Shown here: positions 8,057 to 64,000 of the stretch, piece after piece
Numbering within the stretch: position 1 is the stretch's first letter
Layout: each line of letters begins with the position of its first letter
DNA from: Thermophilibacter provencensis
Lineage (GTDB): Bacteria; Actinomycetota; Coriobacteriia; Coriobacteriales; Atopobiaceae
DNA length: 64,000 nt
Reading direction: 5' to 3'
Assembly: GCF_900128445.1 (NCBI RefSeq)
Contig: NZ_LT671417.1
Span: forward strand, 1,412,769 to 1,476,768
Notes under the pieces: model-generated
Told to the model about the DNA's origin: nothing
Seen by the model: only the letters and a program-made list of their open reading frames with translations
Databases searched by the model: none
Program-made: the position numbers and the translations under genes

Positions 8057-10147
<2,091 letters not shown>

Positions 10148-10163: not shown

Positions 10164-10209
10164 GTGACAGGGGGACGGAGGCTTTGTCACGCCTCCGTCC
10201 CCCTGTCAC
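10164..10209. terminator. Hairpin after glnN
   Basis: A perfect 19-bp stem pairs 10164-10182 (GTGACAGGGGGACGGAGGC) with 10191-10209 around an 8-base loop. It lies 16 bases after the glnN stop. No T-run follows, so termination is likely but not proven. The GTGACAGG and GGGGAC words recur in the hairpins after oppF and between polA and glnN. Confidence 0.65.
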
Positions 10210-10227: not shown

Positions 10228-10359
10228 CTCGTTTATGGGGTGCTTTTTCGTCGAACCTGTAGGTACACTACAAACGGAGAACCCAATCTAGCTGGGAAAA
10301 CCTTCTGAATAACTTGTGGTGTACATCGATGTCCGGCGAAAAAGCACCCCATAAACGAG
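10228..10359. mobile_element. 132-bp AT-rich element with perfect 23-bp inverted termini
   Basis: Left end 10228-10250 (begins CTCGTTTATGGGGTGC) is the exact reverse complement of 10337-10359. The 86-base interior is AT-rich compared with its surroundings. It holds a second, imperfect inverted pair (GTACACTACAA at 10263 with TTGTGGTGTAC at 10314) and a small CCCA/TGGG hairpin (10282-10295). It contains no ORF of useful length. The form fits a miniature inverted-repeat element or a long structured RNA. No target-site duplication is obvious. It lies between glnN and a convergent HAD gene. Confidence 0.6.
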
Positions 10360-10389
10360 GGCGGAGGAGGGCGAGCCCAAGTCCCGCGC

Positions 10390-11124
10390 CTAACCGTCAG
10401 AGTCCAGGCGCGCGATGAGGTCGGGCAGCTCGCGCGCGAGCTCGGCCATCGACCCGCGCCAGACGGCTCGCTTGGGGCGGGCGTGCCCCACGTAGGCGGT
10501 TCGCAGGCCGCAGTCGGCGCGCGGCAGGTCGCGCACGGCGTCGTTGCCGACCATGAGGCACTCCTCGAGGCGCACGCCCAGCTGGTTGGCAAACTCCTGG
10601 TAGTAGCGGGCGCTCGGCTTGCAGCGCGTGGAGTTGGAGATGGTGGAGACGAGGGCGAAGTCGTCCACGTGGACGCCCGCCCACTCCATCCGGGCGCGGT
10701 CGCAGGCGAGGGAGAACGTCGGGTTTGTGGCCAGGGCGCAGACGAGGCCCTCGTCCCACACGGCGTCAATGGCCTCGCGCGCGCCCTCGACGGGGCGAGC
10801 CGCCACGATGCCGCCGGCAAAGCCGGGCACGACCTCGCGCTCATAGTAGTCGATGAGGTCGTGGATGACGGGATCGTCGAGCGGGATGCCGGAGGCCGCC
10901 TGGAACGTCTGGTTGAAGAGCTGCTCGTTGGTGAGGGAGTCTGCGCGGTCCTGCGCGTCGATGGCGAGCAGGCTCCGCACGAAGGGGACGCCGAGCGCGG
11001 CCGGGCTCGTGCGCGCGGCCTCGCCGAGCAGGCGCGAGGCCCCCGCGACGTAGCGAACGATGAAGGCGGTGAGGTTGAGGCGCAGCAGCGTGTCGTCGAG
11101 GTCGAAGAGCACGGCTCGTATCAC
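10390..11124 (-). CDS. HAD-superfamily hydrolase
   Basis: A 244-residue haloacid-dehalogenase-like phosphatase. Motif I is VLFDLDDTLL with the DxD pair, motif II is the Thr of ALATNPTF, motif III is the Lys of TRCKPSARYY, and motif IV is VGNDAVRDL. A helical cap of about 100 residues follows motif I. Start: GTG at 11124 sits six bases after GGGAGG and directly before the conserved strand. The longer open frame upstream lacks similarity and a ribosome binding site. The substrate, probably a small phosphate ester, cannot be told from sequence. Confidence 0.85.
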   Translation of the reverse strand: MIRAVLFDLDDTLLRLNLTAFIVRYVAGASRLLGEAARTSPAALGVPFVRSLLAIDAQDRADSLTNEQLFNQTFQAASGIPLDDPVIHDLIDYYEREVVPGFAGGIVAARPVEGAREAIDAVWDEGLVCALATNPTFSLACDRARMEWAGVHVDDFALVSTISNSTRCKPSARYYQEFANQLGVRLEECLMVGNDAVRDLPRADCGLRTAYVGHARPKRAVWRGSMAELARELPDLIARLDSDG

Positions 11125-11228
11125 GGTGGCCTCCCTGGTCGGATTCGGGGACGTTGCGTCGCCTCCGGTGCGAGCGACGTCCCCGCGGATTTCCTGTAAG
11201 AAAATTACTAGATACCCAAGAGTTCCGC

Positions 11229-11258
11229 TTGAAATACACACTCAGATAACGCTACTCT
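11229..11258 (+). promoter_or_regulatory. Probable rpsA promoter
   Basis: TTGAAA at 11229-11234 and TACTCT at 11253-11258 are separated by 18 bases, a fair sigma-70 match, within an AT-richer island between the divergent HAD gene and rpsA. The transcript would have an untranslated leader of about 140 bases before the S1 start, long enough for the autoregulation known for S1 in other bacteria. No specific structure could be assigned. Confidence 0.45.
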
Positions 11259-12670: not shown

Positions 12671-12940
12671 GCCCGCGCGCTGCGGAATCGGTCGTCGGGT
12701 ACGGTGACTGCAGCTGGAAGGCGAGCTGGCGCCCGCGCGCTGCGGAATCGGGGGTCGTGGCAATTTCCGGGCAGGCCGCGTTGTCGCATTGGGGGTCATG
12801 GCAATCGGAGCGGAGCGTCAACTGGGCGTTCTTCTCGCCCCGTTGCGGGATTAGGGGTTATGGCAGCCCGATTGCTGCCACGACCCCAGATTGGGCAACG
12901 CCAAAGTCGTCGGGATTGCCACAACCCCGGATGGGACAAC
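12671..12940. repeat. Cluster of six degenerate repeats, four direct and two inverted
   Basis: Copies related to GCGGAATCGGGGGTCGTGGC begin near 12671, 12731, 12781 and 12842 on the plus strand, and near 12872 and 12914 inverted. The two longest begin with the identical 18-mer CCCGCGCGCTGCGGAATC. They occupy most of the 510-base gap between rpsA and oppA. Copies are 25-35 bases with irregular spacing of about 40-60 bases, which is unlike CRISPR. The last direct and first inverted copies face each other and could form a hairpin. The gap ends with an AT-richer stretch (about 12972-13010) likely to hold the opp promoter. Confidence 0.75.
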
Positions 12941-23474: not shown

Positions 23475-24266
23475 ATGCAGGGCGAGAAGAACCTCGGGTC
23501 CCAGGGGGGCGGGCGGTTCCGCGCGTGGGCCTCCCGCCTTGCCGCCGTGGCCTTCTGGCTCGCTGTCTGGGAGCTCGCCGCGCGCGCCATCGACCTCAAG
23601 ATCATCCTCGTGGGCCCCTCGCAGGTGCTCGTGCGCCTCGCCGAGCTCGTGGCGACGGGGGAGTTCTGGGCGTCGGTGGCGCTCTCCTTCGGGCGGATCG
23701 CCCTCGGCTTTCTGGCGGCGCTTCTCCTCGGCGCCGCGCTCGCCGCGCTCGCGAGCCGCTGGCGCGCCGTGCGAGAGCTCGTTGCCCCCGTGATGGGTGC
23801 CGTGAAGGCGGTGCCGGTGGCGTCCTTCGTCATCCTCGTGCTGCTGTGGGTCTCCTCGCGCGAGCTCTCCATCGTGATCGCCTTCCTCATGGCGCTGCCG
23901 GTCGTCTACACCAACGTGCTCGAGGGCATCGAGCAGACCGACCCCACCCTCGTCGAGATGGCCGAGGTCTTTGGCATCAGGGGCTGGGAGCGCGTGCGGC
24001 TCGTCTATGCCTCGCAGGTGCTGCCGTACGCGCGCGCCGCCATCTCGCTCGGGCTCGGCCTCTCGTGGAAGGCGGGCATCGCGGCCGAGGTCATCGGCCT
24101 TCCCGACTTCACCATCGGCGAGCATCTCTACGACGCCAAGGTCTACCTCGACACGCCGAGCCTCTTCGCGTGGACCGTCGCCATCGTGGCGCTCTCCGCG
24201 CTCGTGGAATGGGTCGTCTCGCACGGGATGGCGGCGGCGCAGGCGCGCTGGGAGGCGAGGCCATGA
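23475..24266 (+). CDS. ABC transporter permease (SsuC-like)
   Basis: A 263-residue binding-protein-dependent permease with about six helices (for example LAAVAFWLAVWELAARAI). Its EAA-type loop VEMAEVFGIRGWERVRLVY contacts the ATPase. It starts 6 bases after the binding-protein stop and its stop overlaps the ATPase start as ATGA. Order binding protein-permease-ATPase is that of ssu/tau/thi-type importers. Confidence 0.88.
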   Translation: MQGEKNLGSQGGGRFRAWASRLAAVAFWLAVWELAARAIDLKIILVGPSQVLVRLAELVATGEFWASVALSFGRIALGFLAALLLGAALAALASRWRAVRELVAPVMGAVKAVPVASFVILVLLWVSSRELSIVIAFLMALPVVYTNVLEGIEQTDPTLVEMAEVFGIRGWERVRLVYASQVLPYARAAISLGLGLSWKAGIAAEVIGLPDFTIGEHLYDAKVYLDTPSLFAWTVAIVALSALVEWVVSHGMAAAQARWEARP

Positions 24267-35125: not shown

Positions 35126-35320
35126 GGGCGTCCTTTCGAGCGCGGTGCCCGTCGACTGCGGGCCTTCAGCCGATTGTAGGTGTTTCTTCGACGGGGCCTC
35201 AAGTGCTGCCCATGCGGAAACATTTGGCTACCTGCGGATTTGTCGCGGAGGGGCCCCAACATCCGAGGGGCCAGCGAGGGGCGCCGCCCATCTCCGCAGG
35301 GGGGCGACCGCCGGGGTGCG

Positions 35321-39259: not shown

Positions 39260-42133
<2,874 letters not shown>

Positions 42134-59170: not shown

Positions 59171-59296
59171 CTTGTCGAATTATGCGCGTTATTACCGGGC
59201 GGGCTTGCCCGACGTCGCGCCCCGCGCGACCTACGCCGTGCCCGCCGCTGCTCTCCCACCGTTCTTCTCGCCAGCTCATCCCCAGGAGGTTCTGAC

Positions 59297-63690: not shown

Positions 63691-64000
63691 GTTCCGCATC
63701 TGAGCGCGTCACGGGACGCGTTGCCGCGGCGAGAAGAACTACGGCCTGCGGAGCCGTGGTCCTCGCGCCCGCGACTGACGCTCATTTCCGGAACTGAGTG
63801 CGCCATGGGGCGCAACGCCGTGGCGAGAAGTACCGCGGCCTGCGGAATCATGGCTCACGCAACCGCGACGGACGCTCAATTCCGGAACTGAGTGCGGGCG
63901 GGTACTCATTTCCGGAACTGAGCGCGGGCCCCCACCCAGTTCCGCATCTGAGTGCGCCATGGGACGCGTCGCCGCGGCGAGAGGGCCCTCGGCCCGCGGA
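63691..64000. repeat. Tandem repeat array, 94-bp units with truncated copies, running off the window
   Basis: TTCCG(G/C)AACTGAG/TTCCGCATCTGAG-type starts occur at 63692, 63786, 63880, 63910 and 63940. The first two intervals are exactly 94 bases and the next two exactly 30, so two full units are followed by two truncated ones and a partial unit. Units share GGCGAGAAG and CGGCCTGCGGA. TGCGGAATCATGGC at 63841 resembles the repeat core near 12681. The gap 63612-64000 has no gene. Confidence 0.8.

Follow-up and report, generated by a model that had tools for sequence, protein, structure and literature searches.

Intergenic hairpin repeats of about 130 bp in Thermophilibacter provencensis and its relatives: a family of elements probably moved in trans

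A 132-bp AT-rich element with inverted ends lies behind glnN in the stretch of 64,000 nucleotides of Thermophilibacter provencensis DNA analyzed here (the window). An earlier note on this DNA had read it either as a miniature inverted-repeat transposable element (MITE) or as a structured non-coding RNA, and the locus raises the question of what kind of unit it is, whether it has relatives elsewhere and by what means it came to its place.

The element and its neighborhood

The features of the locus are collected in Table 1. In agreement with the earlier note, the window copy is 132 bp long with its terminal 23 bases inverted without mismatch, the first mismatch being at base 24; over 46 nt, the inverted arms are 85% complementary. 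Its AT-richness was likewise confirmed, the G+C content being 0.470 compared with 0.704 for the whole window and 0.736 for the remainder of its intergenic region. The RNA fold of -66.2 kcal/mol is far better than the mean of -29.1 for shuffled sequences (z -11.2; 0 of 200 shuffles equal), and the inner arms pair as described before. The minus strand is the sense strand of the conserved core, and the outer arm at the left-hand end reads TTTATGGGG in place of the TTTGTAGTG of most copies in the same genome.

The element sits between a plus-strand gene (8057-10147) and a convergent minus-strand ORF (10390-11241), which we take, from their sequences, to be glnN and a HAD-type gene, respectively. 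The claim that it encodes nothing holds, as no plausible gene was observed in the window copy; the sole overlapping ORF (10233-10844, minus strand) conflicts with the HAD-type ORF, which it overlaps in another frame. There is no T-run at the ends of the copy.

The second perfect hairpin said to adjoin it after glnN is also present, with TGACAGGGGGACGGAG on both arms. Palindromes near-identical to it occur several times around a Y1_Tnp gene (locus L105) located 26 kb outside the window and 36 kb from the hairpin. This hairpin is best read as a REP, and its assignment as the glnN terminator is doubtful because such palindromes recur around a Y1 transposase gene. Palindromes behind genes in these bacteria may be repeats rather than terminators, which calls for caution.

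Table 1. Coordinates of the hairpin element, its parts and related features in the window
Feature	Position	Strand	Remarks
Full element	10228..10359	-	Inverted ends, folding; model R2 match 10229-10358, 97.5 bits
Outer arm	10228..10250		Perfect inverted repeat of 10337-10359
Other outer arm	10337..10359		Departs from the genome's arm type as 10228..10250 does
Inner arm	10313..10326		RAGTAY box on minus strand, here ATGTAC
Inner arm, partner of 10313-10326	10261..10274		GTACTT box on minus strand, here GTACCT
One-sided core	10285..10302	-	Minus strand GGTTTTCCCAGCTAGATT; family consensus near AAANCCGCAGGTAGA
Neighboring hairpin, a different, REP-like repeat outside the element	10164..10209		Perfect inverted repeat, GTGACAGGGGGACGGAG...
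Probable second, decayed copy	35170..35294	-	Model R2: 23.2 bits, E 7e-4

Copies, architecture and distribution of the family

A whole-genome search with the window copy gave weak partial matches, which turned out to be diverged copies with an architecture in common. In the own genome (G000), at least 19 full-length dispersed copies were identified, 18 by arm pattern and one (L281) by model; L057, L062, and L073 were left out as single weak arm matches that are not full copies. In this architecture, a 14-nt arm (TTTGTAGTGTRCTT) is followed 29 nt on by its reverse, and after a centre of ~38 nt the arrangement is repeated. The outer arms pair with each other, as do the inner RAGTAY and GTACTT boxes, and the inner arms are degenerate in some own copies. 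When the 18 own copies were aligned, the 15-nt inter-arm stretches were found to have kept their length and not their sequence, and in one orientation the copies share a one-sided central motif close to AAANCCGCAGGTAGA. A small ORF starting from an ATG in some cores was rejected by eye, other copies having no start codon there. Removal of duplicate loci left 115, of which L135 was omitted as it is cut by a contig end and its coordinates are wrong for that reason; the 114 measured copies are 119-132 nt long with a median of 130. The window copy belongs to a family of short intergenic hairpin repeats that encode nothing, and is not the single copy that would have weakened the mobile-element view of the earlier note. 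A decayed second member is probably present in the same window (Table 1), where the core ACAAATCCGCAGGTAGCC is retained and the pairing of the arms is lost.

A BLASTN search with the element, as proposed earlier, shows little: the window copy matches only its own genome among the 31 genomes of the genus Olsenella/Thermophilibacter, and the family is thus seen only by pattern and model searches. A first covariance model, built from the 18 own copies, found copies through the genus. Using model R2 (E<=0.001 in the genus), members were identified in 29 of the 31 genomes, with none in the other two, and up to 39 raw matches per genome were obtained, both strands of a palindrome being counted. At E<=1e-6, at least 105 of 395 genomes of the order contain the family, counts that are floors as at most eight candidates were scored per genome, and to which long unrelated hairpins could contribute. 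These comprise 45 genomes of f1, which we take to be Atopobiaceae, 55 of f3, which may, as a guess, be Coriobacteriaceae, and five of f4, recognized by model score alone. Searches of GTDB genome contigs with the exact core pattern yielded 26 stretches, assigned to Olsenella, Thermophilibacter, Atopobium, Atopobiaceae, and one 'uncultured actinobacterium'. The same pattern gave no match in viral contigs, and no family match was obtained in plasmids. Of 140 family genomes, 15 were matched by the paired-arm pattern; beyond the genus, several of these look unrelated, and the control pattern also matched some genomes once or twice.

Pairing, gene context and mobility

In the 18 own copies, the single 46-pair hairpin scores above every one of 500 shuffles in each of five measures, and in 39 copies from 22 genomes the whole structure exceeds every shuffle and every slid control, where the shuffles do not allow for the relatedness of copies. 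Covariation in the larger set is highest in the outer 23 pairs, followed by the inner RAGTAY/GTACTT box and then the spacers. For the outer pairs, 84% of the cells are paired, and the covariation of 0.471 (0.173 when shuffled) was reached by 0 of 500 shuffles; 20 of the 23 pairs are changed on both sides, a count reached by six of 500. When the two 15-nt spacers of each copy were tested for pairing with one another, p was 0.004 for the 18 copies and 0.08 without the perfect copy L056. Over the 39 copies, the spacer score was reached by 0 of 500 shuffles, the further pair types by 72, and the pairs changed by 376. Two local hairpins showed no covariation in the 18 own copies (cells paired, 244 of 500 shuffles; score, 290 of 500), a set in which this test has little power because the arms are nearly alike within a genome. 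In the 39-copy set, covariation of the local hairpins is evident (score, 0 of 500) and weaker than that of the outer pairs, and a cloverleaf form is therefore possible. The ends of the element are sharp, and pairing just beyond them is at background (58 sites, p 0.33). Insertion into terminator hairpins, hinted at by a few copies, found no support in these flanks.

Strong covariation over the long stem and the inner box, together with a conserved core, is what would be expected of a structured non-coding RNA family in which every copy is transcribed and folded, and some cores resemble an intrinsic terminator on the minus strand. Covariation cannot, however, tell RNA from DNA, as the inverted ends of a DNA hairpin should covary equally. 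Gene context was determined with a simple gene caller at 58 loci, of which 29 are tandem, 18 convergent, 10 divergent, and one incomplete, none lying within a called gene. The tandem loci show no clear orientation preference (16 sense, 13 antisense), and it is this near-equality that weakens the RNA reading of the earlier note, while the covariation whose absence would, according to that note, have counted against this reading is present. In addition, nothing reached the Rfam gathering score in the window stretch, 17 own loci, and nine loci of other genera, and the genome-wide sharing of arm sequences described below is unexpected of drifting RNA stems. On balance, an RNA family appears rather improbable to us. 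Ordinary intrinsic terminators or mRNA-stabilizing hairpins would lie close behind genes, and the copies are indeed found at a median of 40 nt from gene 3' ends, compared with 139 nt from 5' ends. Yet 10 of the 57 placed loci are divergent, the window copy ends without a T-run, and arms and core are common to unrelated loci, so that hairpins of this ordinary kind can hardly account for the family.

One recent gain was observed. Two copies in G017 share 178 bp at 98.3% identity with unrelated flanks, the shared stretch starting one base outside one end of the element and extending 46 bp beyond the other. One of the two places is also present in G021 (2.1 kb at 94%), which makes the copy at the remaining place the probable newcomer. 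Only in G001 can both flanks of this newcomer be matched, and the gap there is without a member; ~62 bp to the left of the gained copy are also absent from G001. Matching on the right-hand gene gave 18 loci, from G000 and 17 relatives, and no member was found in any of them; the G016 locus is partial, its contig ending 117 bp past the right-hand match. An older pair (L026/L037) shares 198 bp at 80%, flank on both sides included. Judging from these flanks and the extra 46 bp, what is moved does not coincide neatly with the palindrome. Many copies are also present in G188, where 28 raw matches, reduced by hand, represent 20 distinct places other than that of the query copy, to which they are 67-93% identical; five are in the range 88-93%. 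The 12 that were read out have their end motifs in common, and from one motif to the other each measures exactly 127 nt; their arms are 0.90 and their interiors 0.69 identical.

Of 28 relatives, 19 allowed the gap between glnN and the HAD-type gene to be delimited; among the 20 gaps including the own, only the own and that of G010 contain a member, and model R2 gives the same two genomes when all 29 loci (G000 and the 28 relatives) are searched. Several of the other gaps contain other palindromes. Many copies occupy places shared by several species, which implies that movement is slow and that some copies may be kept for function.

A classical MITE, i.e., a deletion derivative of a DDE-transposase insertion sequence with terminal inverted repeats, would explain the inverted ends, the small size, the AT-richness, the multiple copies, and the recent gain. 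Against this, 58 sites were scanned for target-site duplications of lengths 2-9 at offsets 0-4 and none was detected, the best of the 175 combinations reaching z 2.4, although older copies could have lost theirs. With two mismatches allowed, the listed arm matches in G000 and G017 (91% complete draft) all fall in elements except for four weak single matches in G000, three of which were inspected. This search revealed neither an autonomous parent nor an insertion sequence sharing these ends in either genome; a parent with more diverged ends would escape it. Moreover, the length is kept while the spacer sequence is lost, and the centre is conserved. We therefore regard a classical MITE as very unlikely. 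The earlier idea of a mobile or structured element withstands these data, given the many copies, the recent gain with its empty site in G001, and the strong covariation; of the two MITE marks, no duplication was detected over the 58 sites, and no parent transposon with these ends was seen in the two genomes.

Our preferred reading is that the family probably represents non-autonomous mobile hairpin repeats of ~130 bp, spread in the order, similar to REPINs and ERIC and moved in trans by a predicted protein. As the element carries no gene, such a protein would be made elsewhere. It would most likely recognize the paired arms and the central motif, perhaps on single-stranded DNA by analogy with REPINs, and would insert copies of the unit between genes, a short way past a gene's 3' end. 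The specificity of such a trans-acting enzyme could also shift, and the arms would change with it. No protein responsible for movement was found. In the own genome, the four Y1_Tnp genes (L104-L107) are unlikely movers, as each 3.3-kb locus contains other, differing palindromes and none holds a family member at E<=1 with model R2.

Arms, cores and known repeats

Grouping of the 114 copies by their flanks gave 25 shared sites, most linked by both flanks and some partly or wholly by one. Mean arm identity is 0.83 between copies at different loci of the same genome (n=476), 0.73 at the same site in different genomes (113), and 0.58 where neither is shared (1766 sampled); the corresponding core identities are 0.61, 0.74, and 0.59. 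The arms thus tend to follow the genome and the cores the site. In 90 of 97 arm-switched ordered comparisons (one tie), which overlap one another and are thus non-independent, the arm in place resembles the other arms of its genome more closely than its ortholog does; for the core this holds in 53 of 97 (one tie). Cores of the 55 orthologous pairs with switched arms are 0.653 identical, compared with 0.601 for matched random pairs (maximum of 1000 draws, 0.632). When arms were permuted among all copies 200 times, the highest within-genome likeness was 0.635, compared with the 0.830 observed. Because the comparisons overlap and the copies are listed, mostly best-scoring ones, these figures give the direction of the effect and not its exact size. 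Most genomes have one or two arm types; only three of the 14 sites with three or more genomes have a single arm type, and one site has five in six genomes. The arms evolve in concert, and the data represent a natural experiment in which a core is still traceable at a site with five arm types. With them one can ask how old copies come to alter both inverted ends in step, and a mover protein can be sought via co-variation with arm type.

A DNA-binding protein without any part in movement could also select for concerted arms. The copies would then be scattered sites for a chromosomal protein with a nucleoid, segregation, or regulatory role and a specificity that differs between species, the arms being selected operators and movement being slight. 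Placement shared over species, the one or two arm types in most genomes with their concerted change, the near-constant spacing, and the intergenic position distant from 5' ends all agree with such sites. The recent gain in G017 and the 20 related places in G188 are instead the behavior of mobile elements, dozens of arms would need to track a changing protein, and a member is present in only two of the 20 delimited glnN-HAD gaps. We consider binding sites an unlikely explanation, less so than RNA. Within the preferred reading of mobile repeats, a more specific version is put forward tentatively: the enzyme would be neither a RAYT nor a resident insertion-sequence transposase, and resident arms would be rewritten genome-wide while the central motif stays as the enzyme-binding core. 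The arms of vertically inherited copies would here take on a new species-specific sequence through repeated arm conversion or co-evolution with the enzyme.

ERIC elements occur in about 20 copies, with places shared between species, and both features recur in this family. Integron attC sites are likewise imperfect palindromes with structure kept better than sequence, but the copies described here are dispersed and not in cassette arrays. Further likenesses to ERIC (IRU; 127 bp, in enterobacteria) are the size, the intergenic place, and the inverted ends, as given in the portions of PMC2229807 on these repeats. A table there lists ERIC with a target duplication, inverted ends of 7 bp, and TA termini; compared with this description, our family has no detected duplication, long arms, and TA ends in the G188 and G182 copies only. 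RUP, Correia/NEMIS, and YPAL are also small intergenic repeats, RUP and Correia with inverted ends, all having target duplications according to the same portions of PMC2229807; by description, they differ in their hosts and in these duplications.

REPINs, i.e., REP doublets, are described in the relevant sections of PMC3116915 as long intergenic non-coding hairpins of constant length, with conserved, paired inverted ends that differ between genomes, a variable spacer, and compensatory changes, and the role of spacer length is stressed; REPIN hairpins in excised form are also reported there. Inverted conserved ends, a fixed-length spacer, and compensatory changes are present here too, with spacer covariation weaker than that of the arms. 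Unlike REPINs, the family has a conserved one-sided core within ~130 bp, and in the own genome, where the comparison was made, no member was found beside the four Y1_Tnp genes, which are RAYT candidates, in contrast to the REP-RAYT system. A GTAG or CGTC tag marks one end of REP repeats according to the abstract of PMC3733652. By eye, GTAG occurs in the TTTGTAGTG/TTTGTAGGG arm types (G000, G001, G017, and G021) and is missing from the TTATCTGGG, AAAGGTTGGG, TCGAGTCTG, and CGTTTAGGGG types, so that most arm types are without the tag; GGTAG lies in the element centre.

Among the titles listed, no report of palindromic repeats of these bacteria was found, and six Coriobacteriia genus names are absent from the main text of the GTAG/CGTC repeat survey (PMC3733652). 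A structured-RNA survey (PMC8040213) gives 250 palindromic candidates and one Collinsella leader, and our family may overlap these candidates. If the preferred reading is true, a widespread family in host-associated bacteria joins the small set of REPIN, ERIC, RUP, and Correia.

Other repeats were observed near these loci. The 11-mer GCGAGAAGAAC occurs five times in the window (12828-12838, 23482-23492, 40557-40567, 59261-59271, and 63729-63739) where 0.02 would be expected. Related loci totaling 206 kb (L108-L133) contain it 21 times and its reversed control 0 times, and many occurrences are seen in the glnN-HAD gaps of relatives as well. Three species (G013, G027, and G028; L152, L158, and L161) have another palindromic element, of ~98 bp with the ends GAGTGTACGA...TCGTACACTC, in their glnN-HAD gap, where the ends are alike and the interiors unlike. 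In G188 and G182, a separate ~41-bp repeat containing CACGTCCCCAACC often directly precedes the hairpin element (L327, L328, L330, L333, L334, and L343). Cores at the site of L281, L258, L284, and L242 contain a hairpin like GGCACCTCCCA...TGGGAGGTGCC followed by ATTTTTC on the minus strand, and from this sequence they look like an intrinsic terminator. Finally, L037 of the own genome and L076 of G008 are 97% identical over 3 kb, whereas the HAD-type proteins of both species are 76% identical, which suggests a recent transfer.
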